Source: Micromonospora purpureochromogenes (lineage in GTDB: Bacteria; Actinomycetota; Actinomycetes; Mycobacteriales; Micromonosporaceae). From it: a DNA stretch of 64,000 nt. This document shows positions 5,617 to 46,733 of the stretch, one piece after another. The stretch covers positions 1,550,001 through 1,614,000 of the forward strand of contig NZ_LT607410.1 in the NCBI RefSeq assembly GCF_900091515.1, read 5' to 3'. The position numbers were made by a program, and so were the translations under genes. Position 1 is the first letter of the stretch, and every line of letters begins with the position of its first letter. Under the pieces are notes generated by a model. That model ran no database searches. It was not told the origin of the DNA and saw only the letters and a program-made list of their open reading frames with translations.

Positions 5617-7418
5617 GAGCGCACCAGGCCGTCCGTGGAGTTCGGCTCGGCGGAGAGCACCGCCCGGTACGCGGGCACGGTGGCGAGCAGCTCGGAGTGC
5701 CGCCCCACCGCGGCGATCCGGCCCCCGTCGAGCAGCGCCACCCGGTCGGCCAGCGCGACGGTCGACGGTCGGTGCACCACCAGCAGCGCGGTGGTGTCCC
5801 GCAGCACCCGTCTCAGCGCCGCCTCGACCAGCGCCTCGGTGTGCACGTCCAGGGCGGAGAGCGGGTCGTCCAGCACGAGCAGCGCGGGCCGGCCGAGCAC
5901 CGCCCGGGCCAGCGCGAGCCGTTGCCGCTGCCCGCCGGAGAGCGACAGCCCCTGCTCGCCGACCCGGGTCGCCAGCCCCCACGGCAGGTCGTACGCGAAG
6001 TCGGCCTGGGCCAGCGCCAGCGCGGCCCGCACCTCCTCCTCGTCGGCGTCCGGGCGGCCCAGGGTGAGGTTCTCCCACACCGACATGGAGAACAGCGTCG
6101 GCTCCTCGAAGGCCACCCCGACCAGCCGGCGCAGCGAGGCCAGCCGCAGGTCGCGCAGGTCGTGCCCGTCCAGGGTGATCCGCCCGCCGGTCACCTCGTG
6201 CAGCCGGGGCACCAGGGAGAGCAGGGTGCTCTTGCCGCTCCCGGTCGCGCCCACCAGCGCCAGCGTCTCGCCCGGCTCCACGGTCAGCTCGATCTCCCGC
6301 AGCACCGGCTCGGGGGCGCCGGGATAGCGGAACGAGACGGCCTCGAAGCGCAGCCGGCCCCGCACCGCCGCCGGGGCGAGCGTGACCGCGTGCGGGGCGT
6401 CCACGATGGACGGCGGGGTGTCCAGCACCTCCTGGATCCGGTCGGCCGCGGTCGCCGCCTCCTGGGCGTTCGCGATGATCCAGCCCAGCGACTGCACCGG
6501 CCAGATCAGCATCAGTTGCAGGCTGACGAAGGCGACCAGCTCGCCGATGGTGAGGGTGCCCCGGGCGGCGAGCGCCGCACCGCAGACCAGCACCACGCCG
6601 AGGGTCAGGTTGGGCACCAGGTCGAGCAGCGCGGAGGTACGGGCCAGCAGCCGGGCCTTGTCGACGCCGGTGTCGTGCAGCGCGCGGGCCCGCTCGCCGA
6701 ACCGGGCGGCCAGTTCGGGCCCCCGCCCGTATGCCTTCATGGTGCGCAGGCCCTGCGCGGTCTCCTCGACCAGGGTGGCCACGTCGCCCTGCTGGTCCTG
6801 CATCCGGCGGGACGCGGCGTGGTAGTGCCGGGCGAACCGCCGACTGATCAGGAACAGCGGCACCGCGCTGGCCGCCACCAGCAGCCCCAGCGGGCCGTGC
6901 AGCCGGATCAGCAGGGCCACCACCGCGAGGTAGGTGATCAGGTTGAGTACCAGGAAGAGCAGGCCGAAGGAGAGGAACCGGCGGATCACCGACAGGTCGC
7001 TGGTGACCCGGGAGAGCAGCTGGCCGGACTGCCACCGGTCGTGGAAGCCGGCCGGGAGCCGTTGCAGATGGGCGTAGATGTCGGCGCGGATGGCCGACTC
7101 CATGCCCACCGAGGAGGAGGACTGGGCCCACCGCCGGATGAAGATCAGCAGCGCCTCGGCGAGCCCGAGCAGCAGGGCCAGGCCGCTGAGGCGGAGCAGC
7201 CCGTCCGCGTCGTGTCGGGCGATCGGGCCGTCGACCACCCGCTGCACCACCAGCGGCACCGCCAGGCCGGCCGCGGTGGCGGCCAGCGCCGCGAGCAGCA
7301 GCAGGCACCACTCCACCGCGTACGGGCGCAGGTAGGGGCCCAGTCGCCGGAGGTTGTGCAGCGGGCGCGGCCGGGCGTCCACCCGGTGGGTCGGGTCGCC
7401 GTCGCGCTGCGCGGGCAC
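5613..7418 (-). CDS. ABC exporter half-transporter, degenerate catalytic NBD (first gene of heterodimer)
   Basis: A 601-aa type 1 ABC exporter half: six membrane helices (WCLLLLAALAATAAGLAV, FLVLNLITYLAVVALLI and others) followed by an NBD with Walker A GATGSGKST, signature SLSGGQRQR and switch His in LLVVHRPSTV. Walker B reads LLVLDDPLSALD, so the residue that is the catalytic Glu in canonical NBDs is Asp. This marks the non-canonical site of an asymmetric heterodimeric exporter. The ATG at 7418 starts the gene, and its stop overlaps the start of the partner by 4 nt. The two genes form a tight two-gene operon. Confidence 0.92.
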   Translation of the reverse strand: MPAQRDGDPTHRVDARPRPLHNLRRLGPYLRPYAVEWCLLLLAALAATAAGLAVPLVVQRVVDGPIARHDADGLLRLSGLALLLGLAEALLIFIRRWAQSSSSVGMESAIRADIYAHLQRLPAGFHDRWQSGQLLSRVTSDLSVIRRFLSFGLLFLVLNLITYLAVVALLIRLHGPLGLLVAASAVPLFLISRRFARHYHAASRRMQDQQGDVATLVEETAQGLRTMKAYGRGPELAARFGERARALHDTGVDKARLLARTSALLDLVPNLTLGVVLVCGAALAARGTLTIGELVAFVSLQLMLIWPVQSLGWIIANAQEAATAADRIQEVLDTPPSIVDAPHAVTLAPAAVRGRLRFEAVSFRYPGAPEPVLREIELTVEPGETLALVGATGSGKSTLLSLVPRLHEVTGGRITLDGHDLRDLRLASLRRLVGVAFEEPTLFSMSVWENLTLGRPDADEEEVRAALALAQADFAYDLPWGLATRVGEQGLSLSGGQRQRLALARAVLGRPALLVLDDPLSALDVHTEALVEAALRRVLRDTTALLVVHRPSTVALADRVALLDGGRIAAVGRHSELLATVPAYRAVLSAEPNSTDGLVRS

Positions 7419-11813: not shown

Positions 11814-12215
11814 GTGACTAGCGATCAGACCGCCGCCTTCCGGCGTTACCAGGGGATCGACGACACGGGCTGCCGCACCTTCCAGGACGCGCTGGAACTG
11901 GTCGGCCGCCGGTGGACCGGGGCGATCCTGCTCGCCGGGATGCGCGGCGCGCGCCGGTTCGGGGAGTACCGGGCGGCAGTGACCGGGATCTCCGACCGCC
12001 TGCTGGCGCAGCGGCTCAAGGAGCTGGAGGGTGACCGGCTCATGGAGCGCACGGTGATCCCGACCTCGCCGGTCCAGATCCGCTACGCCCCCAGCCGGGA
12101 CGGGCAGGAGCTGATGACGCTGCTCCAGCCCCTGATCGACTGGAGCCACCAGCGCCTCGGCGGCCCGGCGGCCGGCGACGCCGGCCGGGCCGGGGGGGAG
12201 GGCCGCCCGGCCTGA
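11814..12215 (+). CDS. HxlR-family winged-helix transcriptional regulator
   Basis: A 133-aa MarR-like winged helix of the HxlR class. Diagnostic stretches are [20 protein letters not shown] (with the conserved N-terminal Cys), [25 protein letters not shown] (recognition helix) and a wing ending in [11 protein letters not shown]. HxlR proteins often respond to aldehydes, quinones or oxidants through that Cys. It is divergent from, and probably controls, the LLM/FAD oxidoreductase pair. The GTG at 11814 is chosen because a -10 box lies 7 nt upstream. The coding end is followed directly by the duplicated alkA fragment. Confidence 0.9.
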
Positions 12216-12225
12216 CCGGATCCGA

Positions 12226-12362
12226 ATCGCCGGGCAGGACGGCCGGCAGTAGATCCCGGTCGACGTCACGCCGGTGTAGAACCAGCCGTCGAAGCGCTGG
12301 TCACGGCTGTCCACGGCCCGGTAGCACCGTTCGAGGTCCAACTCCACGACACCGATGATGCC
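12226..12362 (-). pseudogene. Duplicated 5' fragment of alkA (direct repeat copy B)
   Basis: On the minus strand this reads the alkA N-terminus ([18 protein letters not shown], then GIYCRPSC) and stops resembling AlkA after CPA; the initiating ATG has become GTG. It is 133/137 identical by eye to 9334-9470. Weaker similarity extends to ~12400. No downstream AlkA domains follow, so it cannot make a repair enzyme. Apart from this, the gene-free stretch 12216-12592 shows only ~190 bp of unremarkable leader sequence before the next gene. Confidence 0.9.
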
Positions 12363-12592
12363 CGCTGGTCAGGCCGGTGGCTCGCGGGAATCGGACCTGA
12401 GTGTGTGACGCCCGACGCCCCGCCCTCCCGGTCCGCTCCCACCGATCCGGGCGTCGCAGCTCAGGGCAGCGATCCGTTGCGGGACAAGGGATCGGACGCG
12501 AGAAATTGTCGGTAGTGGTCGGTACGGTCCCGCCACCAACTCAAGAAGGGTGCGGGGGCGATGGCGAGCGTGGCCGGGCGGGGTGTCCGCTG

Positions 12593-13042
12593 ATGCGGTC
12601 GGGGCGGGCACGGCTCGATCGCACGGTGGTGCAGGGCTTCTACGACCGGATGCGGGCGGTGGCGCCGGCGGCGTACGGGGCGATCGAGCGGGACCGGGTC
12701 GGTGAGCCGGGGCGCCCCTTCGGGGAGACGGCGTGTGGCCGGCTCGCCGCGTCGCTGGATCCGGCCGGCGTGCGGGCGCTGGGCATGTGGGCGCACCACT
12801 GGTGCATGCGCTTCTACGACGACGACACCCGCCCGGGGCTGCGGCTGGTCCGCGAGATCGCCGGCCGGCGCGGGCTGGGCTGGACGGCCGACGAGGTGCG
12901 CTGGATGCTCGGCGAGTCGTACGCGGCCGGCCCGTCCGCCGCGCACCGGTTCACCCTGCCGCTGGCCGCCGCCGCCGAGCTGCCCGCCGGGGCGCTGCCG
13001 GAGGCCGACGCCCTCGGGGCGGACTGGCGCCTGGCCGGCTGA
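12593..13042 (+). CDS. Hypothetical protein (149 aa)
   Basis: No family recognised. The protein is soluble and rich in Ala/Arg. It has a middle part dense in aromatic and acidic residues (MWAHHWCMRFYDDDTRPG), a GWTADEVRWMLGESY helix and a C-terminal Ala-rich tail ending in WRLAG. The clustered His/Cys/Asp could bind a metal, which is speculation. The ATG at 12593 overlaps the stop of a possible 10-codon leader (12561-12593, TGATG), which may couple translation. Its last 229 bp are antisense to the C-terminal tail of the convergent EamA transporter gene. Codon-position GC and the biased composition favour this strand as coding. Confidence 0.65.
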   Translation: MRSGRARLDRTVVQGFYDRMRAVAPAAYGAIERDRVGEPGRPFGETACGRLAASLDPAGVRALGMWAHHWCMRFYDDDTRPGLRLVREIAGRRGLGWTADEVRWMLGESYAAGPSAAHRFTLPLAAAAELPAGALPEADALGADWRLAG

Positions 13043-13941
13043 GCCGCCCCGCCGGGGCGACCGACGGGTCCGGACGCCGCACCGCCGGGGCGGGCGGGCA
13101 GTTGCGCCACCACCATCGCCGCCACCGCCAGCGCGAAGCCGGTGAGCTGGGTCGGGCTCAGCGCCTGGTCCAGCACGATCCAGCCCAGCGCCGCGGCGGT
13201 CAGCGGGCTCAGCGCGCCGAGCACCGAGACCTGCGTCAACGGCAGCCGCGCCGCGCCCCGGAACCACAGCACGTACGCCAGCGCGGTGCCGACCAGCCCG
13301 AGCCAGGCGTACCCGAGCAGGGCCGGGCCGTCCGGGGCCGGCGGCGCGCCCTCGACGGCGACGGCGACCGGCGTGACCAGCAGGCCGCCGGCGGTGAGCT
13401 GCCAGCTCGTCGCGGCGAGGGTGCTGATCCCGGCCGGGCGGCCCCAGCGGCGGGTGAGCACCAGCCCGGTGGCCATCGCGGCGGTGCCGGCCAGGCCGGC
13501 GGCCACGCCCAGCGGGTCGGTGCCGGCGTCCGGCCGGAGCACGACCAGCGCGACGCCCAGCGGGGCGGCCGCGGCGGCCAGCAGGGCGAGCCGGTGCGGC
13601 CGGTCCCGCAGCACCAGCACGGTGAGGCCGGCGACGAGCAGCGGCTGGGCCGCGCCGAGCACGGCGGCGGTGCCGCCGGGCAGCCGGTACGCCGCGAGGA
13701 AGAGCAGCGGGAAGAAGGCGCCGATGTTCAGCGCGCCGAGCAGGGCGGCCCGCCACCACCAGGAGCCGTGCGGCCGGCGTCGGGTCAGCGCGAGCAGCAG
13801 CAGCCCGGCGGGCAGCGCCCGCAGCGCGCCGGACCAGAGCGGCCGGTCCGGCGGCAGCAGCTCGGAGGTGACCAGGTAGGTGGTGCCCCAGACGGTGGGC
13901 GCGAGGGCGGTCAACGCGATGTCGGTGCGGCGACGGCTCAT
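12814..13941 (-). CDS. EamA/DMT-superfamily exporter
   Basis: A drug/metabolite-transporter protein with ten predicted helices arranged as two EamA repeats: IALTALAPTVWGTTYLV at the start of repeat one, and AAGLAGTAAMATGLVLTRRWG leading into repeat two. LSPLTAAALGWIVLDQAL is the typical end helix. It probably exports amino acids or small metabolites. The first ~290 residues are ordinary EamA. The last ~75 (after ARPGGAASGP) are low-complexity Ala/Ser/Arg and lie antisense to the hypothetical gene at 12593-13042. That tail may be read-through past a lost stop or simply unused overlap. The ATG at 13941 faces the MarR gene across a 52-bp operator-bearing gap. Confidence 0.85.
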   Translation of the reverse strand: MSRRRTDIALTALAPTVWGTTYLVTSELLPPDRPLWSGALRALPAGLLLLALTRRRPHGSWWWRAALLGALNIGAFFPLLFLAAYRLPGGTAAVLGAAQPLLVAGLTVLVLRDRPHRLALLAAAAAPLGVALVVLRPDAGTDPLGVAAGLAGTAAMATGLVLTRRWGRPAGISTLAATSWQLTAGGLLVTPVAVAVEGAPPAPDGPALLGYAWLGLVGTALAYVLWFRGAARLPLTQVSVLGALSPLTAAALGWIVLDQALSPTQLTGFALAVAAMVVAQLPARPGGAASGPVGRPGGAAQPARRQSAPRASASGSAPAGSSAAAASGRVNRCAADGPAAYDSPSIQRTSSAVQPSPRRPAISRTSRSPGRVSSS

Positions 13942-13968
13942 CGGGCACTCGATTCTCTTCGCAGTAAG

Positions 13969-13986
13969 TAGCTTAGTGCTAAGCTA
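13969..13986. promoter_or_regulatory. MarR operator: perfect TAGCTTAG-TG-CTAAGCTA palindrome
   Basis: Two 8-bp arms separated by TG sit in the 52-bp gap between the divergent EamA and MarR genes. The TAAGCT inside it (13980-13985) fits a TANNNT -10 box 8 nt before the GTG of the MarR gene. Binding here would repress both directions. The regulator assignment is inferred from position. Confidence 0.7.
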
Positions 13987-13993
13987 ATCACCC

Positions 13994-14533
13994 GTGAGCG
14001 AAGAGTGGAAGGGCGACGTGGGGCACAATCCGGGGGTGACCGACCGGGACGACGTCGACCTCATCGTCGAGCAGTGGCGGCGCGAGCGCGCCGGGATGCG
14101 GCCCGAGCCGATGGCGGTCTTCGGCCGGATCTACCGGCTGGCCCGGATCGTCGGCGACGCGCAGGAGCGGGTCTACGCCGACTGGGGCATCGGCCGTGGC
14201 GAGTTCGACGTGCTGGCCGCGCTGCGCCGCAGCGGCGAGCCGTACACGCTGGCACCGAAGGAGCTGGCCGCCGCGCTGATGCTCACCTCGGGCGGGATGA
14301 CCGGCCGGCTCGACCGGCTGGAACGGGCCGGGCTGCTGCGCCGCGCGCCCGACCCCGCCGACCGGCGGGGCCTGCGGGTGACCCTGACCGACACCGGCCG
14401 CCGCGCGGTCGAGGAGGCCGCCGAGGCGGGCCTGACGGTGCAGCGACGAATCCTCGACGCGCTGCCTCCGGCGGACCAGACCCGCCTGGGGGATCTGCTG
14501 CGCGCGCTGCTCGCCGCCGCCGAAGCGGGCTGA
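13994..14533 (+). CDS. MarR-family transcriptional regulator
   Basis: A 179-aa winged-helix repressor. The MarR core is clear: RGEFDVLAALRRSGEPYTLAPKELAAALMLTSGGMTGRLDRLERAGLLRRAPDPADRRGLRV, with the recognition helix at TSGGMTGRLDRLE and the wing at DPADRRG. Helices outside this form the dimerisation domain. It is divergent from the EamA exporter, whose expression it probably represses until a ligand binds. The GTG at 13994 is used because a -10 box and operator lie immediately upstream. A second in-frame GTG at 14036 (start VTDRDDVDL) would give a more typical-length N-terminus and is a real alternative. Confidence 0.9.
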   Translation: MSEEWKGDVGHNPGVTDRDDVDLIVEQWRRERAGMRPEPMAVFGRIYRLARIVGDAQERVYADWGIGRGEFDVLAALRRSGEPYTLAPKELAAALMLTSGGMTGRLDRLERAGLLRRAPDPADRRGLRVTLTDTGRRAVEEAAEAGLTVQRRILDALPPADQTRLGDLLRALLAAAEAG

Positions 14534-14603
14534 CCGGGCCGACGGCTCGGCCGGCGATGACGCAGGATGGGGGGCGTCACCCCGCCCGACGGAAGGATCA
14601 TCC

Positions 14604-15338
14604 GTGTCCGCCAGCGAACCCACCATCGTCGCGACCAGCATGGGCTTCAGCAGCCGGGACCGTGGCCCCTGGGACGCGAAGCCCGGGCCGGTCTTCGACC
14701 TGATGGCCGAGCTGGCCGGGGCCGACGAGCCGAAGATCTGCTACCTCAACCAGGCGGTCGGCGACCAGCCCACCGCGTTCACCGTCTTCTACGGTGCCTT
14801 CGCCGGCACCCGGTTCCGCCCCTCGCACCTGGCGCTGTTCCCGATGCCGACCGTCGACGACATCCGGGCCCATCTGCTCGCCCAGGACATCATCTGGGTC
14901 GGTGGGGGCAGCGTCGCCAACCTCTGCGCCGTCTGGCGGGTGCACGGCCTGCCGGAGATCCTGCGCGAGTGCTGGGAGGCCGGTGTGGTGCTCGGCGGGG
15001 TCTCCGCCGGCTCGATCTGCTGGCACGTCGGCGGCGCCACCGACAGCTTCGGCCGCACGCTGCGCGCCTACACCGACGGCCTCGGGTGGCTGCCGTACGG
15101 CAACGGGGTGCACTACGACAGCGAGGAGCAGCGCCGCCCGCTGATGCACCGGCTGGTCGGCGACGGCACCCTGCCGGTCAGCCACTGCACCGACGACGGG
15201 GTCGGGCTGGTCTACCGGGGTACCCGGCTGGCCGAGGCGGTCGCCGACCGCGAGGGCGTCGCCGCGTACGAGCTGACCCCGGACGGCGCGGGCGGCGCCC
15301 GGGAGACCCGGATCGAACCCCGGCTGCTCACCGCCTGA
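14604..15338 (+). CDS. S51-family peptidase (PepE / cyanophycinase-like)
   Basis: A 244-aa member of the class-I glutamine-amidotransferase-fold serine peptidases. The nucleophile elbow GVSAGSICW is at about residues 132-140, with IIWVGGGSVANL upstream (the S51 GGGN-like loop) and a late His in PVSHCTDDGVG. Family members cleave Asp-X dipeptides or related substrates in the cytoplasm. A GTG start at 14604 follows GGAAGG at a good distance. It stands alone between MarR and the convergent exonuclease gene. Substrate specificity is not readable. Confidence 0.88.
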   Translation: MSASEPTIVATSMGFSSRDRGPWDAKPGPVFDLMAELAGADEPKICYLNQAVGDQPTAFTVFYGAFAGTRFRPSHLALFPMPTVDDIRAHLLAQDIIWVGGGSVANLCAVWRVHGLPEILRECWEAGVVLGGVSAGSICWHVGGATDSFGRTLRAYTDGLGWLPYGNGVHYDSEEQRRPLMHRLVGDGTLPVSHCTDDGVGLVYRGTRLAEAVADREGVAAYELTPDGAGGARETRIEPRLLTA

Positions 15339-15375
15339 GCGCCGGCCCTTCGGGTACGCGGACGGCGCAGCCGGT

Positions 15376-15960
15376 TCAGCCGGCCTCGGCCCGCCCGGGG
15401 CGGTGCCGGAGCGCGGCGTCGAAGACCTGGGCCAGCTCGGCCGCGTCCTCCCCGGCGTGGTGGGTGTGCGGCACGTCGGTCAGGCCCAGCTCGTGCTTGA
15501 TGATCCCCTTGCGGGTCCGCACCCACTCGCAGCCGGTCCGCCCCATCCACCAACTGCGCAGGTCCACCCCGGACCCGGTCGCGCCGAACGGGCTGCGGCC
15601 GGTGAACCGGACGAAGTACCAGTGCACGAACATGCCGTCCCAGACGGCGGGCGCGGCCAGGAAGACCGGCCGGCCGATCCGGCGCAGCCCGTTGACCCAG
15701 CTGGCGGCGGCGCCCATCGCCTCCTCGGCGGTCGGCGCCTCCCGCAGCAGCCGGTCCCGGTCGAGCCCGGAGACCGCGAGGGCGGCCGGCACGAAGTCGT
15801 CGGAGATCGGCTTCAGCTCGGTGTAGAAGGCGAGGTCGGGCCGCCCGGCCACCGCCATGCCCAGCGAGATCATGCTGTACGGGCCGGGGATCGGGCCGTC
15901 CGCCTCGACGTCCACCGCCACGTACAGCTCCGGCAGCCGCTCGCCCGCCCCGCTCGTCAT
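15376..15960 (-). CDS. DnaQ-like (DEDDh) 3'-5' exonuclease family protein
   Basis: A 194-aa single-domain protein. Exo I motif is VAVDVEADG (Asp and Glu metal ligands), a central Asp is in PAVWDGMFVHWYF, and the Exo III motif is HHAGEDAAE (general-base His and last Asp). This set is that of RNase H-fold DEDDh exonucleases. There is no polymerase or helicase domain, so it could process DNA or RNA ends independently. The ATG at 15960 fits the motif position. It is convergent with the S51 peptidase (37-bp gap) and divergent from ychF. Confidence 0.85.
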   Translation of the reverse strand: MTSGAGERLPELYVAVDVEADGPIPGPYSMISLGMAVAGRPDLAFYTELKPISDDFVPAALAVSGLDRDRLLREAPTAEEAMGAAASWVNGLRRIGRPVFLAAPAVWDGMFVHWYFVRFTGRSPFGATGSGVDLRSWWMGRTGCEWVRTRKGIIKHELGLTDVPHTHHAGEDAAELAQVFDAALRHRPGRAEAG

Positions 15961-16064
15961 CCGGGCAGGCTAGCAACGCTGCCGGCGTACCCGGGACGTC
16001 TTTTCCCCCGGCTGGTGGGCCTACCTGCCGGGTGTCGGCGGACATCGGCGTAAGCTGGCCCGTC

Positions 16065-17150
<1,086 letters not shown>

Positions 17151-17187
17151 CGGTGGGGCCGGATCGTAAAGGTTCTAGGTTGGGCGG

Positions 17188-17520
17188 GTGACCCCGACTC
17201 ACCACGCCGTAGAGATGGAAGACCTCACCCGATTGCGGCAACTTCTAGATGCTGGAGCCGCCGTCGAGGATCCCAACGAGCAAGGCATGACTCTGTTGCA
17301 TCATGCCGTGGACTTGGAGGGCGATGGTGCTCTCCAGTCCGGGGGGCCTCTGCATGTGGACGTTACGGCCCTGCTGCTGGCCCGAGGCGCGAACCCCTAC
17401 GCCGCCGATCGTGAAGGCCGCACGCCGTTGGACTACGCCCTGGCTAATGGGCACTGGCTTGCCGTGGAGCTGCTGGCGGCATGGAGCCGCGACCGAGGGC
17501 CGGCCAGCCCGGGTGACTAA
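17188..17520 (+). CDS. Small ankyrin-repeat protein
   Basis: A 110-aa protein built of about three ankyrin repeats: DLTRLRQLLDAGAAVEDPNEQG, MTLLHHAVDLE...VTALLLARGANPYAADREG and RTPLDYALANGHWLAVELL. The TPL/TLLHHA motifs and the GAN/GAA turns are diagnostic. It is a protein-binding module with no enzymatic domain or signal peptide. The GTG at 17188 is the family-compatible start. It is the first gene after the ychF 3' end, in a region with lower GC and less regular codon use than the flanks. Short stand-alone ankyrin proteins of this kind often act as immunity proteins in toxin loci; that is a family-level possibility only, since no toxin gene is visible here. Confidence 0.85.
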   Translation: MTPTHHAVEMEDLTRLRQLLDAGAAVEDPNEQGMTLLHHAVDLEGDGALQSGGPLHVDVTALLLARGANPYAADREGRTPLDYALANGHWLAVELLAAWSRDRGPASPGD

Positions 17521-17700
17521 TTGGGTGACGATGGGTGTGATCAGTAAGGGACGACCACGGACGTCGGTGGACGATTGACGCTGCTAGAAGCCCTCGCCGT
17601 CCCAGGTCAGCGAGCCGTGTTGGTTGCCTGGGGGTCAAGGAGTCGTCCTACCTGCGCGATCCCTCGCGGTTCCGGCCGTCGACCTGAAATCCCGAGCGGG

Positions 17701-18162
17701 TCAGAACGAGAAGTGCTTGACCACCGCCCAGCCCCGCTCCGCGGACCTGGCGTAGAAGGCCCGTAGGTCTGAGTGGTACTGAGCCAGGCGCTCCCGCAGC
17801 TCCTCATCGGACTCGGATGAGGGCAGTTGCCGCCACTCCTGCCACCGGTCCGGGAACGAAACTCTCTCCAGGTACGCTGCCGTGCGCGCCACGTCCGGCG
17901 GCCCGAGCGCCACGTGGCCCGGGCCGCCGCCGGGGTCCGGTATGTGCCGACCTCCGAAGACGGGGAACTCCCGGTCTCCGCTCAGCTGCGACTGGAGCAA
18001 GTAAAGCTCATTCAGCTGGAAGAAGCCGCTCTCCAGCCATACTGCGTCACCTGCCCGGACTCGTCGGCGCAGCTCGTCAAACTCCACATCGAATAGGGCC
18101 TCAAAACCCGCCGGCTTCACGGGCAGCTCGGAGGATTCGAGCCCTTGAAAGTAAACCCACAT
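17701..18162 (-). CDS. DUF1877-like protein (copy 1)
   Basis: A 153-aa cytoplasmic protein of YfbM/DUF1877 character. The recognisable layout is a long N-terminal half, FPVFGGRHIPDPGGGP in the middle, DVARTAAYLERVSFPDRW, and a C-terminal DLRAFYARSAERGWAVVKHFSF. The same order (FGGR, PAEVRRTAEFL, DLRTFYERAAQAGHAVIK) is found in the gene at 20300-20785, so the two are divergent paralogues. The ATG at 18162 is preceded by a GAGAG-type RBS; the open frame further upstream is not protein-like. Function of the family is not established; in some genomes such genes sit in immunity-gene arrays. Confidence 0.75.
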   Translation of the reverse strand: MWVYFQGLESSELPVKPAGFEALFDVEFDELRRRVRAGDAVWLESGFFQLNELYLLQSQLSGDREFPVFGGRHIPDPGGGPGHVALGPPDVARTAAYLERVSFPDRWQEWRQLPSSESDEELRERLAQYHSDLRAFYARSAERGWAVVKHFSF

Positions 18163-18638
18163 ACTCACTCTCGGCAAACTACCTGGCGCCACCGACGCGA
18201 GCCCCGTGGCCAACAGGCACCGCAGGCACGAGCGCGTCGTCGACGAAGACCAGGTCCAGGCCGCCGACAGGTCAACGCCTAGTAGGAGGGCAGCGCGCTG
18301 AGGCAGCCAGGAGGCAGCGAGAGCAACAGCAACGACCGGCATCAGACGACACAGGACCGCAACCGAACCACTCTTCACCGGCAGCGGGCCACGGACCCTC
18401 GCGACGGAAATCCGGCCAGCACAACCTCCGGATCCTCCGCGACGTGGCCCAGTCGGGGGTAACGTCCGGCGGTAGGAACAGCGGCGGCAGTAGCCGCTCC
18501 CGCTCCTCGATCACAGGGGCGTTGGTCCGGTCTTGGTGACGATGGCCGGCGGGAGCCCGGGTGGCCCGGGGCCAGGACCAAAGGGTTCCCGCCGTCGGGA
18601 CAGAACACCGCAGACAGGACAGGCAAGGAGTGGGTACG
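18163..18638. other. Gene-poor stretch in accessory region
   Basis: About 475 bp with no convincing gene. A minus-strand frame between ~18350 and 18520 reads somewhat protein-like (VIEERERLLPPLFLPPDV) but lacks a supported start and loses character on both sides. It may be a decayed fragment. The last 60 bp hold the leader of the VOC gene. Confidence 0.4.
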
Positions 18639-19094
18639 ATGGACGTCAATCTTGAGGTGGTCACGATCCCGGTGTCGGATGTCGACAGGGCGCTGGAGTT
18701 CTACCGGGATCGCCTGGGCTGGCGACTGGACGCAGACATCAAGGTCAGCGACGACGTCCGCATCGTGCAACTGACCCCGACTGGTGACGGCCATACGTCC
18801 ATCGCGTTCGGCAAAGGCCTGCCGATAGCCGCTGCACCGGGGTCGATGCGGCACCTAGAGCTAGTGACCTCCGACGTCGTGGCCACACGGGAGGAGCTAG
18901 CCCAGCGGGGCGTCGACGTCACCGAGGTCTACCACGGCCCCGGCGGCGCTTTCTGGCCCGAGGCGCGCCAACCCGGCCCCGACCCCGAACGTAATAGCTA
19001 CAACTCGTTTGCCTCATTCCAGGACCCGGACGGAAACGGCTGGACGCTGCAGGAGGTCACTACCCGCATGCCGGGTCGCGAGGCCCGTTCGTGA
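18639..19094 (+). CDS. VOC-superfamily (glyoxalase/bleomycin-resistance-like) protein
   Basis: A 151-aa protein with two beta-alpha-beta-beta-beta units. Unit one is VNLEVVTIPVSDVDRALEFYRDRLGWRLD; unit two is MRHLELVTSDVVATREELAQRGVDVTEVYHGPGG ending in FASFQDPDGNGWTLQEV, whose Glu is the usual metal ligand. The first expected metal ligand position is Glu/Val rather than His, so it may be a dioxygenase-like or binding-only member. The ATG at 18639 follows AAGGAG at 9 nt. Codon use is less GC3-biased than housekeeping neighbours, in line with an acquired region. Substrate unknown. Confidence 0.88.
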   Translation: MDVNLEVVTIPVSDVDRALEFYRDRLGWRLDADIKVSDDVRIVQLTPTGDGHTSIAFGKGLPIAAAPGSMRHLELVTSDVVATREELAQRGVDVTEVYHGPGGAFWPEARQPGPDPERNSYNSFASFQDPDGNGWTLQEVTTRMPGREARS

Positions 19095-19908
19095 CATTAC
19101 AAGCCGCGTCGTTGCTACACCACCTACTGCCTGCCTCCTGAGACGGGCCATCCACGGGCCAGAAGCCGATGTCATCGGGGGCTACGTGAGGCCGCCTACG
19201 GCCGAGGCGAGCAGGAGAAGCGGCGCACGTCGAAGCCGATCTTGTGCGATTCCCAAGCTGATAGTGACAGCAATGGTTGGCAGCAACGGCCGTGGACGGG
19301 CAGGGACAGGCGGGGACAGCAAAAGCCGCAGAGCTCAGGGCTAGCGTCGGATCGGGACAGCTTCGGACGGCATCGCCGAGGCTAGGGATCAGATAGCCGC
19401 ATCCGTGACCTGTCTCAGTCCTCATCCAGTCCTCAACAGGTCGACCCTCGACCGCTGACGTCGAGAGATGCCGAGAAGGGTTTCCGCAGGCCACGCCGGT
19501 TTCGCGCAGGTAGACCCAGGTGAGCAACTTGATCTCGTAAGGCATAGGTCGTGGTGACAGCAACGGCGACAGCAACCGAGGCGAGTCGCGCCAACCACAG
19601 CCGAGACTCAGTCGTCACCACAACCGAGGCGGTGCGGCGAGCCTCATCGCTCGGTCTGTGCCTCTAATCCGCCGGTCCGGCGGGCTGCAAGCGCTGCTGC
19701 ATCCCGTCAGTGTGGGGCACACAGGGGGCACAAGACACTGTGAAACGTCGTCAAGCAACCGTGAACGATGGCAGCCTGAGACGCCATGTGAGCAGGCGTC
19801 GCACGCCGTCCGCGCTGGTGGCGGGACAGCCGCTCTAAGTTCCGCTTCAACGTCTGATTCCGCCTTGGCTGCGTCCACTTCGGTAGCTGACGGGAACGGA
19901 AAGCGGCC
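19095..19908. other. Non-coding/decayed stretch with GACAGCAA repeats (possible attachment-region remnant)
   Basis: About 810 bp without a supportable gene. It contains scattered copies of a GTGACAGCAA-type word (19264 GTGACAGCAATGG, 19554 GTGACAGCAACGG, then CGACAGCAACC directly after, and GGGACAGCAAAA near 19313). It ends with the exact copy of the ychF 3' end at 19838. Short direct repeats beside a duplicated gene end are what arm-type integrase sites look like, but no integrase gene is visible. Confidence 0.4.
19838..19862 (+). repeat. att-like core copy 2
   Basis: Positions 19838-19857 are identical over 20 bp to the last 20 bp of ychF, including TGA. The following ATTCCG is shared with copy 3 at 21695 instead of with the ychF downstream sequence. 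Confidence 0.8.
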
Positions 19909-20163
19909 CTATTTCGTGCGCTCAGGGTGCATGTCGCCCGGCTGCACCGGCCGGCCAGGAACGTTGATGCACAACTGACCCGGCTCAGCGCCGCACACCG
20001 GGCAGGGGCGGTACGACTCGACGGACCCCGGATCGAGGCCCCTCGTCTTGGCCGCTCGGACGATCTCGTCGGCCGCGTGGTGCAGCTCAAGGTCCCGATG
20101 GCGCACGGCAGCCTTGTGGATTCGCTGGAGCGCGCTTCGCGCCCGCTCCCCTGGGTCGGTCAT
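19909..20163 (-). CDS. Small zinc-ribbon-like protein
   Basis: An 84-aa protein. The N-terminal half is an amphipathic helix (RARSALQRIHKAAVRHRDLELHHAADEIVRAAK). The C-terminal half carries CPVCGAEPGQLC followed by a HPER tail, a C-x2-C...C...H pattern that suggests one zinc site. Similar short CxxCG-x-GxxC modules are common in actinobacterial mobile elements and phages. The ATG at 20163 has GGGAAGG just upstream on the coding strand. It lies right beside att-like copy 2. No enzymatic role can be inferred. Confidence 0.65.
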   Translation of the reverse strand: MTDPGERARSALQRIHKAAVRHRDLELHHAADEIVRAAKTRGLDPGSVESYRPCPVCGAEPGQLCINVPGRPVQPGDMHPERTK

Positions 20164-20299
20164 CCGACCGACCTTCCCGCTAGGTTCGCCGTCACACACA
20201 CATCCTGTTGGCCTGCGGAAACGCACGATATGGGCCCGCGTGGAAGCCAAATCGGCCGTGCGGTTCGGGCTGACCGACCTCGAGCGTTGCCTGAAGCGG

Positions 20300-20785
20300 C
20301 TAATACCAGAAGGCTTTGATCACGGCGTGGCCGGCTTGCGCGGCCCGCTCGTAGAAGGTGCGCAGGTCGTTGTGGTGGCCGAGGAAGATGTTCCTGGCCG
20401 CGTTCCCGTCTTCCCACCCGATGTACGGCTTGGAGAGCTTCGTCCCCGCGATCTGCCAGCGTTCGCCGAACGGAACGATCCGGAGGAACTCCGCCGTCCT
20501 CCGCACCTCGGCCGGGGTGAGGATGACGAACGGCGGTTGGTCTTCTGCCGGGCTGGAAATCTGCCGACCACCGAAGATCGGCAGAGTGTTGGCCGGGTTC
20601 GTGGCGTCGCCATGCTCTGCGCCCATCGTGTAGAGCTCGTGGACGTGGCCGAAGTCCTTGTCGATGGAATCGGCGATGCCAGCAGCGTGCTCCTCCTGAT
20701 GCGCCTCCCAGGCGGTGGACATGAAGTCAAGCAGCGACGAGAAATCCTCTGGGACCTCGTTGGAGGCCGTGGCCCGCAGGTGCAT
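20300..20785 (-). CDS. DUF1877-like protein (copy 2)
   Basis: A 161-aa paralogue of the 17701-18162 product. Sequence landmarks are MHLRATASNEVPEDF at the N-terminus (the usual DUF1877 opening), LPIFGGRQISSP, VILTPAEVRRTAEFLRIVPFGERW and DLRTFYERAAQAGHAVIKAFWY at the end. An alternative TTG start at 20797 (adding MSFH) has GGAG 10 nt upstream and is plausible; the ATG at 20785 is listed. Two members in one island suggest successive acquisition or duplication. Function unknown. Confidence 0.78.
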   Translation of the reverse strand: MHLRATASNEVPEDFSSLLDFMSTAWEAHQEEHAAGIADSIDKDFGHVHELYTMGAEHGDATNPANTLPIFGGRQISSPAEDQPPFVILTPAEVRRTAEFLRIVPFGERWQIAGTKLSKPYIGWEDGNAARNIFLGHHNDLRTFYERAAQAGHAVIKAFWY

Positions 20786-20831
20786 ATGGAAGCTCAACGG
20801 GCTGCTACTCCTGCATCTGAGTGTCGAAGCA

Positions 20832-21599
20832 CTACTGCTCGCAGCGCCGACGAGCGAGATGGACGGTGAGGTCGGCGGCAATCTCGACCGTCTCAGGCAG
20901 GACCTGCATGATCCGGCTGAATACCTGTTCCCGCTCCGCGGCCGGCAGTTCGAGATAAGCCGAGATGGTCGAGAGGTGGCCGACGTAGTCGCGGGCACTC
21001 ATCGTCGACCGCCGCACGATCACGGACTGCCGAACTTCGGCGAACCACTCAGACCGTTGGAGCTCCGTACCCGGCCACTGCATGTCATGCCCCGGAGGCG
21101 TCCCATCCGGAGACGGAACATCGTCGCTCTCCAGGAACGGTGCGCGGGCCGCGCGAACAGCTTCCTCCACAGCCGGGTCGGCCAGCTGGAGTGGTCCACC
21201 GAACGAGGCGAACACGCCACCTGGCTCCAGCAGCGCGGCGATGCGCGACCACCGGCCCTCCGGGTTCGTCCAATGCAGCGCCGCTGCCGCGTACACCAGC
21301 GCGTAGCGCTCGCCCGGTCGCAGGTCCTCGAACGCGGCTTGCACGGTCTTGACGTCTGCTGCCACGTGCTTACGCAGCTCGGCGAGCATGGCCCCGTCAG
21401 GCTCGGTCGCGGTGACCGTTACCCCTTGCTCAGCGAACAGACGGGTTGCTTTGCCGGTCCCGGCGCCGATTTCCAGGGCAGTCGGAACCGGCTGACCCGC
21501 GTACGTCATCACCAGGTCGAAGAGCTCCACGGGATACCCCAGCCGGAACCGTTCGTATGCCTCCGCCACCACTCCGAAGCTCAGTGCGCGACGAGACAT
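20832..21599 (-). CDS. Class I SAM-dependent methyltransferase
   Basis: A 255-aa cytosolic methyltransferase. Motif I is ALEIGAGTGKATRLFAEQG, motif II has the acidic residue in VTATEPDGAML, and motif post-II/III is YALVYAAAALHWTNPEGRW followed by LLEPGGVFASFGGP. The layout matches UbiE/trans-aconitate-methyltransferase-like enzymes (methyltransf_11). The substrate is not evident. The ATG at 21599 is used, with AGGA 9 nt upstream; an ATG nine bases earlier (21608) is equally in frame. It lies inside the island between att-like copies 2 and 3 with no metabolic partner next to it. Confidence 0.85.
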   Translation of the reverse strand: MSRRALSFGVVAEAYERFRLGYPVELFDLVMTYAGQPVPTALEIGAGTGKATRLFAEQGVTVTATEPDGAMLAELRKHVAADVKTVQAAFEDLRPGERYALVYAAAALHWTNPEGRWSRIAALLEPGGVFASFGGPLQLADPAVEEAVRAARAPFLESDDVPSPDGTPPGHDMQWPGTELQRSEWFAEVRQSVIVRRSTMSARDYVGHLSTISAYLELPAAEREQVFSRIMQVLPETVEIAADLTVHLARRRCEQ

Positions 21600-21694
21600 G
21601 CCGAGCATCCTGACACGATCTGCGCCGTCGATGCCCGGACTTTCCCCGCGACCTGGCCGCCCAGGTCGGCACAGCTGGCGGGAGGACCGGCCAC

Positions 21695-21718
21695 GTTCCG
21701 CTTCCACGTCCGATTCCG
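21695..21718 (+). repeat. att-like core copy 3 (diverged)
   Basis: GTTCCGCTTCCACGTCCGATTCCG differs from copy 2 (19839-19862) at 2 of 24 positions, and is a poorer match to ychF itself. It marks the possible end of a second insertion unit. Confidence 0.6.
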
Positions 21719-21734
21719 GCCTGTTTCCCCCTGG

Positions 21735-22403
21735 TCAGGCGCGGTGGGCGGGGTGGTCGGGCTGCCAGCCGGCGTCGGCCGGGCAGGGTGGCCCGACGTT
21801 GATGAATGGCTGCTGTCCCATCGGGTACGCGGACTGCGGTACGAGAAGGATCGATTGTCCGGTGCGGAAGCGCGCAGGACTGATCTGACGTACGCGAGAA
21901 GGGATGCCGGCGATGAAGGACAGGATCCTGAAAGGGTTGCGGAAGAGGGCGAGCGCGATCGTGGTGCGCCGCCGAGCCAAGGATTCCGTGATCAACAAGC
22001 CGACCGGTGCCAGAAGGCCCGGCAGGCGTTTCCAGTGAGAGCGCGACCGGCCGGGGGCTGAATGGCCGCCCGGCCGGTGGCGAGGAACTGTCCTCCCCGG
22101 TCCGCCGTTCACCATGCCGATGACGGAGTGCGTACCCGAGTGCGGTTGCGCGGCGAACAGCGAGTCCGGGTCGACCGGCCGGGATCGCCGCTGCGCGGCT
22201 CGCCAATCGTCCAGCAGGAACTCGTTGATTCCGCTGTCGTCGTGCGCGGGATCGAGCGTCGCGCGGAACTCGTCCTCGGTCAGGGCGTAGGTCGGGTCCG
22301 GCTCCTCGCGGTGGTACGCGCCCCGGTCGTACACGTCCTGACGTAGCTGCCGGAGCGCAGCGGCGACGTCCGGCTGGTAGGCGACGCTGTACGACCAGCC
22401 CGA
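21735..22403 (-). pseudogene. Broken hypothetical gene (start and C-terminus lost)
   Basis: The frame from 22403 reads a convincing protein start region (GWSYSVAYQPDVAAALRQLR, DVYDRGAYHREEPDP, TEDEFRATLDPAHDDSGINEFLLDDWRAAQ, AAQPHSGTHSVIGMVNGG). It lacks an ATG/GTG/TTG before GWSYS; the codon there is TCG. After GMVNGG the sequence turns into arginine/proline-rich text unlike the first part, which suggests a junction or frameshift near 22105. An in-frame GTG at 22334 could give a short product. The intact form looks like a small cytoplasmic protein of unknown function found in actinobacterial accessory regions. Confidence 0.55.
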
Positions 22404-22448
22404 AGCTCCTCTCGACCGTTGCCGGGACTCGCGATCGATCCCAGCCGG

Positions 22449-22730
22449 TCAGGATGCGCAGCGGTCGAAGCGGTTCGTCCACCCCTCGTCCGGCGAGCCG
22501 TCGAATGTCAGCAGCGCGAACCCGCGTCCGTCGTGGTCGACCAGCAGGGCGTCGCCGAACGCGTACCGGTCGGGCGACCCGTGGTCCCGGGCGGGGCCGG
22601 CCTCGCGGACGCCGAGGTCGAGCCGTACCCATCGCTCGTCCTCGTCGGCGAGCAGCCAGGTGCCGGCGGCGGCCGTGGGTCGGCGGCCGGCGAAGTAGGT
22701 CCGCCAGATGTAGTCGTCGCTCCAGGTCAC
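22449..22730 (-). CDS. Hypothetical protein (93 aa)
   Basis: A small acidic, tryptophan-rich protein (TWSDDYIWRTYFAGRRPT, GTWLLADEDERWVRLDLG, GFALLTFDGSPDEGWTNRFD). It is globular with no signal peptide or known motif. The GTG at 22730 overlaps the TGA of a short upstream frame (GTGA), and the frame stays protein-like for ~20 codons upstream without any start codon, so the true N-terminus may be longer or truncated. It is followed by the broken gene on the same strand. Composition favours real coding; function unknown. Confidence 0.5.
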   Translation of the reverse strand: MTWSDDYIWRTYFAGRRPTAAAGTWLLADEDERWVRLDLGVREAGPARDHGSPDRYAFGDALLVDHDGRGFALLTFDGSPDEGWTNRFDRCAS

Positions 22731-24927: not shown

Positions 24928-25673
24928 CGGTCCACGACCTCGACCATCCGGCCGTTCTCGTAACGGAACTGGCGGGGTGGCCCCATCGCCTGCACCTGCT
25001 CCAGCAGGGCGCGGCGCTCGGCGGCCTCGCGGCCGGTCGGGTCCACCACCCGGAAGCCGAGCAGCGCGATCGCGTCCGCGTCAACGTCGCCCGGGCGCCG
25101 GCGGCCCTCGATGGTGAACCCGAAGAGGTGACGCAGCGCCTCCTCGCCCAGCTCCAGCGGGTGATAGGGAAGCGGGTACGGCTCCTCGTCGTCCCACTCC
25201 GCTGCGGGCAGGACGGGGTGCTGGCCCGCCCGGTGCGGCAGCTCGAACGCGTACGGCGTGCCGATGTCCTCGCCGACACCGCCGTCGGGGGAGACGCTCA
25301 GTGAGCGGACCAGCTCGCCGTCCTCCCAGACGGCGAAGGCCAGCCAGTCGACGACTGAGTGCATCGCGTGCAGGACGACCCGCCGGCCGGCGGCCAGCCC
25401 CAGCAGATGGGCCGGCAGCTCGGATGGACGGTCCACCATGAACCGACGGTCGCAGAGGATGTCGACGCCGGGCAGACTCGCGGCGTAGGTCACCTTGTCC
25501 GGCGGGTAGCTGCCGTCGGAGAGGGTGTTGCCATCGGTGGCGCTCACCTCGAAACCCGGGTGCGTGCGGCGGACCAGTTCGGCTGTGCGGCGAGCGTCGG
25601 GTGTGCCGACGCGCCGGAGTGCGGTCGGCACGTCCCCGTCGGCGAAGGCCAGCAATCCGGTCTTGGCGCCCAT
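24924..25673 (-). CDS. DUF6928-like protein
   Basis: A 249-aa protein whose opening MGAKTGLLAFADGDVPTALR and internal HAMHSVVDWLAFAVWEDGELVRSLSVSPDGGV match what I know of the actinobacterial DUF6928 family. The C-terminal half has PYPLPYHPLELGEEALRHLFGFTIEGR. The fold and role of the family are not established. No membrane segments or signal peptide. It is translationally coupled to the methyltransferase gene downstream. Confidence 0.75.
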   Translation of the reverse strand: MGAKTGLLAFADGDVPTALRRVGTPDARRTAELVRRTHPGFEVSATDGNTLSDGSYPPDKVTYAASLPGVDILCDRRFMVDRPSELPAHLLGLAAGRRVVLHAMHSVVDWLAFAVWEDGELVRSLSVSPDGGVGEDIGTPYAFELPHRAGQHPVLPAAEWDDEEPYPLPYHPLELGEEALRHLFGFTIEGRRRPGDVDADAIALLGFRVVDPTGREAAERRALLEQVQAMGPPRQFRYENGRMVEVVDR

Positions 25674-25740
25674 CCACCACTCCCCGTCGGTCGTCGTACG
25701 CGATGCCGGCGACGGTAGCCGGAAGCTGCGACAGCCGGGG

Positions 25741-26103
25741 TCAGGAGATGTAGTGCAGGATCACGTTGTGCACGTGGTGGCTCTTCTGCGCGCCCCGGAA
25801 CTCCACCTCGTAGGTGTGCGTGCCGACGTGGACGGCGATCGCTCCGGTGGAGAAGAACGAGCCGCCCCACGACTTGTTGCTCACCACGCTCACACTGGTG
25901 ATCTTCGAGTACGGGATGCTGGTGATGGCGTACCGCTTGCCGATGAACGACCGGTCCTGGATGATCACGCGCCGGTCGGTGAGCCCGATGAACCCGGTAC
26001 CGGTGCCGACGGCGTCGTAGACGGCGATGATCTGCTCTCCGTCGAGCAGTCCACTCTGGATCTGCTGGAACTGCTCCTTGCGGTCGTACGTCGCATTGGC
26101 CAT
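25741..26103 (-). CDS. Bacterial PH-like domain protein
   Basis: A 120-aa single-domain protein. LDGEQIIAVYDAV, TGFIGLTDRRVIIQDRSF, KRYAITSIPYSKITSVSV and GAIAVHVGTHTYEVEF form the bPH/YdjM-like strand pattern (FLALTDRRLIF / IPYSxI motifs). No catalytic residues; such domains are thought to mediate protein or lipid contacts. The ATG at 26103 is the only sensible start. It is divergent from the DUF4190 protein gene. Confidence 0.8.
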   Translation of the reverse strand: MANATYDRKEQFQQIQSGLLDGEQIIAVYDAVGTGTGFIGLTDRRVIIQDRSFIGKRYAITSIPYSKITSVSVVSNKSWGGSFFSTGAIAVHVGTHTYEVEFRGAQKSHHVHNVILHYIS

Positions 26104-26187
26104 GGATCCCACGGTAGGAAGCGGACGCCACCGGTCCGGTCGACTAGTCTGCACGCCGCAAGGGGGACACGGGGGAAGGAACGCGAC

Positions 26188-27261
26188 ATGACCACGGACG
26201 ACACCAGGTCGAGGCAACCGCCGTCGCCCGGCCTCGCCGAGGCGGCCGCGGGCGAGTGGGAGCCGTGGGCGGGGTCCCGGCCGTCGCACGGGCGGATGAA
26301 CCGCCTGGCGGTCGCCGCCTTCGTCCTCGGCCTGCTCGGCGGCGTGCTGGGGGCGGTGGTCGGGGTGGTCGCGCTGCGCCGGATCAGGCGGACCGGGGAT
26401 CGGGGCCGGGGCCTGGCGGTCGCCGGCCTGGTGCTCTGCGGCGTCTGGGCGCTGGCGCTGGCGCTGGTCCTCACCGGGGTGGTGTCCCGGCCCGACCCGC
26501 CGGTCGGCGTCCGGGGGCTGCAGGCGGGTGACTGCTTCCGCGTCGACGACACCCCCACGGGTACGCGCACCGCGCCGGAGGAGGTCACCACGGTGCCCTG
26601 CACCGCGCCGCACGACGCAGAGCTGGTCGACCGCCTGCCCGCCTACGTTCGGCACGCCGGCGAGGCGTACCCGGGCACGGCCGCGCTGTCGGCGCGGGCC
26701 GAGACGGCCTGCCGGCAGCAGCAGCGCAGCTACGTCCTCGACCCGCTCTCGCTCCCGGCGGACGTGCGGCTGCGCTGGTACGTCCCGTCGCGGGTCGAGT
26801 GGCCGACCTATCCGCAGATCACCTGCTATCTGGCCGCCGGGTCGACGCCGTTGACGCGGCAGCTGCGCCAGGACGCCACGGTGGTCCGCCCCGAGCAGCT
26901 GGCCTACCTGATGGCGACCCGCGAGCTCGATGATGCCCGGGCCGTCCTCGCCGCCCAGGGCCCGACCGCCGCGCCGGACGAGCTGCGCGCCATGCTGGCC
27001 CGGACGGCGACGGCCAACGGCCGGTTCTGGCTCGCGCTCAGCGCCCAGGCGTGGCCGGCGCAGGTCAAGGAGCCGATGGAGAAGCTGATCGCCGAGGCGC
27101 AGGAGGCCGGGGCGCACTGGCGGGACGCCGAGAAGACCGCCGACCGTGACCAGGCGCTCCGGCTGGTGGCGCAGGCCGAGCAGCGTCGCGAGCCGCAGAC
27201 GGAGCTGGCCGTACGCCGGGCCCTGGGTCTGTCCACCGTGCAGGGCGAACCGGCGCGCTGA
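26188..27261 (+). CDS. DUF4190 / septum-formation-domain membrane protein
   Basis: A 357-aa protein. The N-terminal ~40 residues are charged and cytosolic. Two helices then form a DUF4190 module (LAVAAFVLGLLGGVLGAVVGVVAL ... GRGLAVAGLVLCGVWALALALVL). The extracytoplasmic part starts with VRGLQAGDCFRVDD and VTTVPCTAPHDAELV, the signature of the septum-formation (Septum_form) domain with its conserved Cys pair. The last ~100 residues are helical, charged and unassigned. The ATG at 26188 follows a GGAAGGA RBS. It is possibly linked to cell envelope or division; that link rests on the family name only. Confidence 0.78.
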   Translation: MTTDDTRSRQPPSPGLAEAAAGEWEPWAGSRPSHGRMNRLAVAAFVLGLLGGVLGAVVGVVALRRIRRTGDRGRGLAVAGLVLCGVWALALALVLTGVVSRPDPPVGVRGLQAGDCFRVDDTPTGTRTAPEEVTTVPCTAPHDAELVDRLPAYVRHAGEAYPGTAALSARAETACRQQQRSYVLDPLSLPADVRLRWYVPSRVEWPTYPQITCYLAAGSTPLTRQLRQDATVVRPEQLAYLMATRELDDARAVLAAQGPTAAPDELRAMLARTATANGRFWLALSAQAWPAQVKEPMEKLIAEAQEAGAHWRDAEKTADRDQALRLVAQAEQRREPQTELAVRRALGLSTVQGEPAR

Positions 27262-46652: not shown

Positions 46653-46733
46653 TGACGCCGCACAGCCTGTGGTGGTAGACATTCCTGCCAGAAGGCTCGC
46701 CGGTGGGGCGGGCGGTACGGCGGGAGGCGTGCG

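Follow-up and report, generated by a model that had tools for sequence, protein, structure and literature searches.

Background

Why is the end of a gene present again downstream of it? In Micromonospora purpureochromogenes (RefSeq assembly GCF_900091515.1, contig NZ_LT607410.1) we analysed the 64,000 nucleotides from 1,550,001 to 1,614,000, hereafter called the window, in which the last 20 bp of the GTPase gene ychF recur exactly beyond the gene, within a stretch of small genes and repeats. An earlier note, made from the letters of the sequence alone, had read this as serial site-specific insertion at the ychF 3' end. We find that the island is very probably an insertion of the actinomycete integrative and conjugative element (AICE) type at ychF, now decayed, and that it carries, besides the attR of the ychF integrase family, several attR-like half-sites of other specificities, which may be relics of integration sites that the element lineage used before.

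Methods

Among named records, the nearest loci belong to Micromonospora. The comparison set comprised 159 congeneric genomes, which with this genome (G000) made 160; genomes and loci are referred to by G and L numbers. Stretches of about 18 kb downstream of ychF were taken from 100 of the 159 congeners, and measured 3 to 8.5 kb in five of them, at contig ends. The terms P arm and core, and the logic of the recombination directionality factor, are those of the general tyrosine-integrase literature. An attR profile (P arm plus core) was built from 12 loci other than the window's own. A motif regular expression was tried as integrase finder and missed true integrases, and a profile of ychF-adjacent integrases, built from four of them, was used instead, with a cut-off of E ≤ 0.01 for the window's interval between ychF and the PH-type gene further downstream. 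The orientation of units was counted over 140 loci, for neighbouring pairs at most 4 kb apart. The loci used for orientation and dispersal were picked for similarity to the window's own unit and include related loci.

Results and discussion

The repeated ychF end

The 20-mer AGTTCCGCTTCAACGTCTGA lies at 17131-17150, including the ychF stop, and again, exactly, at 19838-19857; a third copy at 21694-21713 has three mismatches, and the 24-bp stretch 21695-21718 differs from the 19838 copy at two positions. The repeats on which the earlier note relied are thus present as it described them. Window shuffles gave zero 20-mer matches at up to three mismatches. In the 6.67-Mb genome the 19-mer (the 20-mer minus its first A) is exact only at 17132 and 19839; the further sites are one with a single mismatch (5,220,304), one with two (the 21694 copy) and three with three, and the reversed control of the 19-mer gave one match. 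In view of the shuffles and the genome-wide count we reject a chance origin; far from being a common word, the 20-mer hardly occurs elsewhere in the genome.

The attR profile matched the window at 19695-19857 with 146.9 bits (E 1.8e-44), and the arm without the core still scored 120.5 bits (E 2e-36). Judged by this match, the 19838 copy is a genuine attR. Its arm starts with GGGGCACACAGGGGGCACA, and 13 loci, selected through that very pair pattern, have a similar pair in their P' arm. At 21694 the core alone is recognisable, with no P-arm match and a P' part of 3.2 bits (E about 5). Of the element's ends the window thus keeps the attR and the core at ychF, and the P' arm of attL is gone. A cis-mobilizable element, or defective AICE, would have kept both att sites while lacking an integrase of its own.

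The guanine-plus-cytosine (GC) content, in 500-base windows, is 63-69% from about 17,000 to 22,250 vs 69-81% in 12,000-17,000. To the right it is 70-78% up to 25,500, and a second dip (66-67%, 25,500-26,250) coincides with a conserved PH-domain gene. The low-GC stretch is real; the variable region is larger than the island of 17131..21718 given in the earlier note and extends to 25,741, the start of the first genus-conserved gene. No recombinase was found among the window proteins run against Pfam, nor were Rep or FtsK/SpoIIIE-type transfer genes among the island proteins run. Phage structural and replication genes were likewise absent from the Pfam results for the window proteins run, two proteins tried against PHROGs had no match, and known RNA families gave no match above the gathering score in 16900-22500.

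ychF as an integration hotspot

Of the 100 congeners, 88 have the PH-type gene (25741-26103 in the window) downstream of ychF, always on the minus strand (88/88); in the remaining 12 it was not found within the stretch examined. Its distance from the ychF stop ranges from 46 bp (L217, genome G115) to 18,037 bp, with a median of 6.8 kb and 8.6 kb in the window. Beyond this gene the sequence is conserved in most congeners; before it, in few. Besides L217, Micromonospora sp. HNM0581 (L043, 251 bp) has a near-empty site. A second core within three mismatches of the 19 positions occurred in 26/100 stretches. Signatures of elements at ychF were found in 32/100 congeners (the union, L195 included): a P' arm after ychF in 21, an attR arm unit in 18 and an integrase or its remnant in 18. 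Only two of these integrases are whole (L143, L194), the other 16 being truncated or fragmentary. Tandem attR-attL junctions occur in L144, L126, L186, L189, L143 and L139. The ychF-to-PH interval is therefore an integration hotspot in Micromonospora.

The comparison of strains that the earlier note suggested showed that relatives have both the empty site, of 46 bp in L217, and islands with recombinases at ychF, namely the integrases or remnants of the 18 congeners and a serine integrase in L195. One and the same gene order with its repeats was not found among the 100 congeners, where second cores lie at differing distances and only fragments of the window's island occur. Insertion at the ychF 3' end thus stands, on the attR profile, the congeners' P' arms, the integrases or their remnants, intact elements and the empty site. 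Congeners show serial insertion, as at L144, where a P arm, a core and a P' arm form a junction; the case for it in the window is built on the stacked half-sites of other specificities and on the 21694 copy, which has no recognisable arms.

An element of the family is preserved at L143 (G008), where the 3' end of the integrase gene abuts ychF and a second core lies 12.26 kb away. It encodes an integrase (76 bits), an Xis-like HTH_17 protein (35.8), RepSA (474), FtsK/SpoIIIE (39.8) and a GntR/UTRA regulator (GntR, 74.9), and its sites score 59.7 bits (attL) and 135.3 bits (attR). Because integrase, Xis-like protein, RepSA, FtsK/SpoIIIE and GntR/UTRA all lie between the cores, the G008 element is, as far as gene content tells, an intact AICE inserted in a protein gene. 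Integrases at least 72% identical to that of G008 occur in 12/160 genomes, and 11 of them adjoin ychF. The other matches are at most 46% identical and lie off ychF, as far as ychF positions allow; the exception is an integrase of G002 (36%), which is at ychF and has relatives at the same place in Blastococcus, Modestobacter and Klenkia. Plasmid and phage relatives of the G008 integrase are all less than 60% identical, and a search of plasmids with the ychF end found 28 records that contain ychF-like sequence; no excised AICE was recognised among them. The earlier note had also proposed mobilisation in trans. Within this genome that is unsupported, since a G008-type integrase had no match there at E ≤ 1e-40, with 12 of 44 candidates scored.

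Phage-like elements are found at ychF too. L194 has one with a tape measure gene, and L195 (G143) a prophage-like region, 0-14.1 kb after ychF, whose genes encode a serine integrase with Resolvase and Recombinase domains, a tape measure protein and a primase. The Streptomyces satellite phage Mulchroom (L118, OQ784832.1) has at 7338-7380 an unannotated 43-bp ychF 3' end, 93% identical, which adjoins its tyrosine integrase gene and is probably its attP; the main text of the Mulchroom paper mentions neither attP nor attB (PMC10690885). As a probe for ychF elements of the genus the Mulchroom integrase was given up, having only two strong matches, neither on a ychF contig. Fecal phage records without annotation match ychF as well and were left out of the analysis.

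Half-sites of other specificities

The features of the island and its borders are as follows; the attR-like units are lettered by type.

16065..17150, plus strand: ychF, whose final 20 bp (17131-17150) form the left att core copy (Pfam YchF-GTPase_C, 132 bits, match at 16059-17150)
17188..17520, plus strand: ankyrin-repeat protein, cargo (Pfam Ank_4, 50.6 bits)
17509..17648, plus strand: unit e, putative relic attR-like half-site; pSAM2/pACPL-type arm pair and tRNA-Pro(GGG) half
17701..18159, minus strand: DUF1877 protein, cargo (Pfam, 25.2 bits, cut-off 22)
18639..19094, plus strand: glyoxalase-fold protein, cargo (Pfam Glyoxalase, 50.5 bits)
19244..19311, plus strand: GACAGCAA repeats, weakly matching the beginning of a type-b unit (12.1 bits, E 0.003)
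19382..19551, plus strand: unit c, putative relic attR-like half-site; arm pair AGTCCTCA twice, core TTGATCTCGTAAGGCATAGGTCG fitting tRNA-Thr(CGT)
19553..19679, plus strand: unit d, attR-like half-site; arm pair GACAGCAACGGCGACAGCAAC, common to loci of G027, G021, G056 and G084
19695..19857, plus strand: unit a, attR of the ychF integrase family by profile match; arm pair GGGGCACA twice, core equal to the ychF end
19909..20169, minus strand: zinc-finger protein, cargo (Pfam Phage_zn_bind_8, 32.1 bits; no PHROG match)
20300..20785, minus strand: second DUF1877 protein, cargo (Pfam, 50.2 bits; no PHROG match)
20832..21599, minus strand: methyltransferase, cargo (Pfam Methyltransf_25, 49.6 bits)
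21694..21713, plus strand: decayed third core copy, arms unrecognisable (20-mer match, three mismatches)
25741..26103, minus strand: small conserved gene, right border of the hotspot (PH-domain-like as judged by eye)

The blocks 17500-17647, 19382-19551 and 19534-19679 are common to other genomes, mostly off ychF. Units e, c, d and a all share one orientation. The GACAGCAA repeats, which the earlier note had mentioned and which are indeed present, are paired direct repeats that start attR-like units, and are therefore probably integrase arm sites, a role that the note had missed. The neighbouring half-sites, which also escaped it, fit tRNA genes instead of ychF.

Unit e has its arm pair at 17509-17529, with two mismatches, and a tRNA-Pro(GGG) half at about 17628-17648. 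The arm repeat is the one published for pACPL and likened there to that of pSAM2 (PMC3364876). This genome has tRNA-Pro(GGG) at 4,502,822, with a Phage_integrase match at 4,502,132-4,502,632, and an attR with the arm pair of unit e at 4,354,272; a third copy of the tRNA-Pro(GGG) half, at 4,384,954, is without that arm pair. In the ychF intervals of the 100 congeners the type-e arm pair, at up to three mismatches, is found in two only. An insertion sequence (IS) element was considered as source of the GGGTGACTAACTGGGTGAC blocks and dropped, the pACPL paper giving this sequence as an arm-type repeat (PMC3364876).

For unit c, the matching tRNA gene of this genome, tRNA-Thr(CGT), lies at 47,232, and there is a genuine attR at 39,592, both with a core near-identical to TTGATCTCGTAAGGCATAGGTCG; the arm of that attR resembles that of unit c (34.5 bits, E 2e-10, with a profile built on a single other locus). 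The two sites delimit a 7.6-kb element at tRNA-Thr(CGT) with a 63-bp repeat at its far end (L354, G000:C1:39592-47249); it contains an inner type-c unit (55 bits) and a Phage_integrase match at 46,655-47,056. In the tRNA-type half-sites (units b, c and e, at several loci) the homology to the tRNA gene ends 17-20 nt past the anticodon loop.

Dispersal, orientation and order of the units

Matches to the 163-bp attR at E ≤ 0.001 were found in 100/160 genomes, ychF loci and partial matches counted. Thirty of the matching loci were extracted; two are ychF loci, and the other 28 stand on different contigs or at different positions. Many loci have, near type a, a unit of type b, which combines GACAGCAA arms with CTTGTAAGCGAG, a sequence found in tRNA-Thr(TGT). 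Among the 140 loci all 39 neighbouring pairs of units (39/39) have the same orientation, at a spacing of 0.1-3.6 kb; 36 of these pairs lie outside the 100 ychF loci, three of the 36 being in L281 and L284, the ychF loci of two further genomes. Within ychF intervals 30/30 units point as ychF does, a, c and d of the window included.

The order of units, with the anchor in brackets where its own attR closes the series, is e, c, d, [ychF] in the window; b, b, b, b, [ychF] in L126, where type-e arm pairs follow ychF at distances of 9 and 1001 bp; a, b, [Lys], a, b, [Lys] in L331; b, a, [Val] in L338; and a, b, b, [Val] in G130, where two more short Val matches lie further out. The anchor's own attR thus stands to the right of foreign units in the window, L126, L331 (twice), L338 and G130. 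In the 20 loci L328-L347 a P' arm or integrase remnant directly follows the type-a core in L341 and L343 only. A second stack in this genome lies off ychF, in L003 at about 1240-1519 (G000:C1, about 5,220,040-5,220,322), where a type-a unit (92.5 bits) comes after a type-e unit; 4 kb further, at 5,224,200, there is a Phage_integrase match of a different kind.

When the flanks of 62 unique type-a units were compared, 13 pairs shared the left flank only, eight the right only and one both. Thirteen of the 21 one-sided pairs were examined in detail, against background arm identities of 72-74%. L299/L302 are 99, 96 and 100% identical up to the core and 50% thereafter, L345/L281 96, 96 and 95% and then 52%, and L042/L332 62, 77 and 80% before the core and then 94%; the switch at the core is less clean in L147/L142, L329/L326 and L342/L330. 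One unit with its 0.8-kb left flank is at ychF in G071 (L281) and elsewhere in G062 (L345).

Origin of the island and of the stack

In the explanation that we favour, 17151-19857 is very probably the remnant of an element of this family: the distal attR survives with both arm and core, as do a few isolated cargo genes, and the attL arm and the integrase, xis, rep and tra genes have been lost. Its lineage would have swapped the integration module several times, each swap leaving the old P arm and core distally as a relic attR half-site: one for tRNA-Pro(GGG), one for tRNA-Thr(CGT) and one of unassigned target, with the ychF-type attR outermost. The segment 19858-21713 probably represents a tandem element of greater age whose core has decayed. 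Module replacement with the old half left distally would account for why the units face one way, why P' halves are missing and why the current attR lies outermost, and it is supported by the attR sites for tRNA-Thr(CGT) and tRNA-Pro(GGG) in this genome, which agree with units c and e in arm and core. We hold the explanation as a whole to be probable, with moderate confidence. That the stack results from module swapping, a step whose history and order we infer, is put forward more tentatively, as a serious possibility.

Several observations weigh against this explanation. The window has no P' arm after ychF, vs 21/100 congeners with one, and its ychF-to-PH interval yielded no integrase or remnant with the ychF-adjacent profile, which bears out the earlier note, where none had been visible. 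The link of the integrase family to ychF has an exception in G112, whose integrase (L278, L279), 93% identical to that of G008, is on a 3.6-kb contig; the DNA beyond its P' arm is not ychF, and the ychF of that genome sits on another contig. Unit d has no tRNA-like partner in this genome. Genuine attR sites continue to the end of the tRNA gene, unlike units b, c and e, and module swapping does not predict that their homology ends where it does. The unit counts are non-independent because some loci share flanks, and a partial type-a unit in L335 is opposite in orientation, uncounted because its distance of 6.7 kb from the neighbour exceeds the 4-kb limit. The type-e arm pairs in L126 and near the units of L331 and L338 fall outside the letter order given above. 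Finally, the anchor repeat was not found in L329 and L341, and it measures 12 bp only in L339 (a, b).

Plain accretion and decay is another explanation: whole tandem elements, inserted at ychF and at other sites, would have been shrunk by deletion, the half-sites of other specificities having arrived as cargo or through chance recombination. The tandem junctions of the congeners and the ychF-adjacent integrases at all stages of truncation agree with this, and accretion and AICE decay are known from Streptomyces (PMC9513070). Alone, however, accretion explains neither the asymmetry between sharp-ended P arms that persist and P' arms and integrases that are mostly gone, nor the uniform orientation of differently targeted units, and we consider it unlikely, if still worth weighing. 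A prophage that used ychF is very improbable as source of the island: phage-like elements do use this gene (L194, L195, Mulchroom) and the window encodes a Phage_zn_bind_8 domain, but its attR arm matches that of the AICE family of G008, and the proteins at 19909-20169 and 20300-20785 have no PHROG match.

The remaining alternative is a cassette-like exchange, in which AICE integrases would trade modules of one or a few genes, each ended by a half-att unit (arm pair plus a core of about 20 bp), between ychF, tRNA genes and other islands, giving one-directional arrays without an integron integrase. The co-orientation of all neighbouring pairs at short spacing, the reshuffled flanks of the type-a units, the identity switches at the core in L299/L302 and L042/L332 and the unit shared with its left flank by G071 and G062 are what such trading would produce, and it would explain the stop of the tRNA homology. 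Recombination of half-sites that lack a P' arm would, however, be a hypothetical reaction, the switches are unclean in several pairs, and homologous recombination inside the 150-bp units, a cause that we disfavour, could also account for them. No integron attC-type hairpin was found in three units on both strands (z-scores -0.85 to 1.20), and none of the 160 genomes has an integron integrase over the TIGR02249 cut-off, weak sub-threshold matches occurring in all 160. We regard a cassette-like system as rather improbable, and as less likely than relics of former specificities.

Comparison with known systems

The AICEs pSAM2, SLP1 and pACPL (PMC3218068, PMC3364876) resemble the present elements in the gene set, found again in G008, and in the published arm-type repeat that unit e bears. 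They mostly target tRNA genes, whereas the elements described here insert at a protein gene's 3' end and the window copy is without core genes. Accretion, decay and integrase switching of AICEs have been described (PMC9513070, PMC3218068). Defective Streptomyces AICEs likewise have a partial integrase, cargo, flanking repeats and several elements per site, and one family is found at different sites via integrase switching; accretion as described there joins elements of one shared site, whereas the window stacks co-oriented half-sites of different targets (PMC9513070). Table S5 of that paper covers 14 protein-gene sites, among which ychF may be (PMC9513070). The ssrA islands of Dehalococcoides are also tandem, bounded by 20-bp repeats of a gene 3' end and in part without an integration module; they differ in their serine recombinase and RNA gene target, and the passages on them describe no half-sites of other specificities (PMC3146451).

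Mulchroom shares with the elements described here the ychF 3' end beside a tyrosine integrase, and differs in being a phage genome with another integrase. The pneumococcal prophage PPH005 is at the ychF locus too, but in another host, with its attB between a DUF951 gene and ychF and with int next to ychF (PMC8637289). Integrons are likewise one-directional arrays of modules, each ended by a recombination site; as described above, neither an integron integrase over the cut-off nor hairpin attC sites were found here. The literature searched, with most subscription papers and all supplements beyond reach, showed no AICE site or actinobacterial insertion at ychF and no oriented stacks of half-sites.

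Switching of the integration site in conjugative elements is usually inferred from the comparison of whole elements. If the half-sites represent past specificities, the switching history of a lineage could be read from one sequence, and the stack would resemble a fossil record of former integration sites, all facing one way. If the cassette reading were true, actinomycetes would own an integron-like route of gene trading made from other parts. ychF is a recurrent protein-gene target of at least three recombinase classes (AICE tyrosine integrase, phage-type serine integrase and satellite-phage tyrosine integrase), and its end offers a defined attB for integrative vectors in Micromonospora.

Cargo genes

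The small accessory genes seen by the earlier note could be given families by Pfam, as listed above. The segment 18354-19137 has counterparts of 93-98% identity elsewhere in five congeners, and for 20814-21662 many congeners have loci of 74-91% identity at other places. The two DUF1877 proteins, which flank the 19838 attR, share 31% identity.

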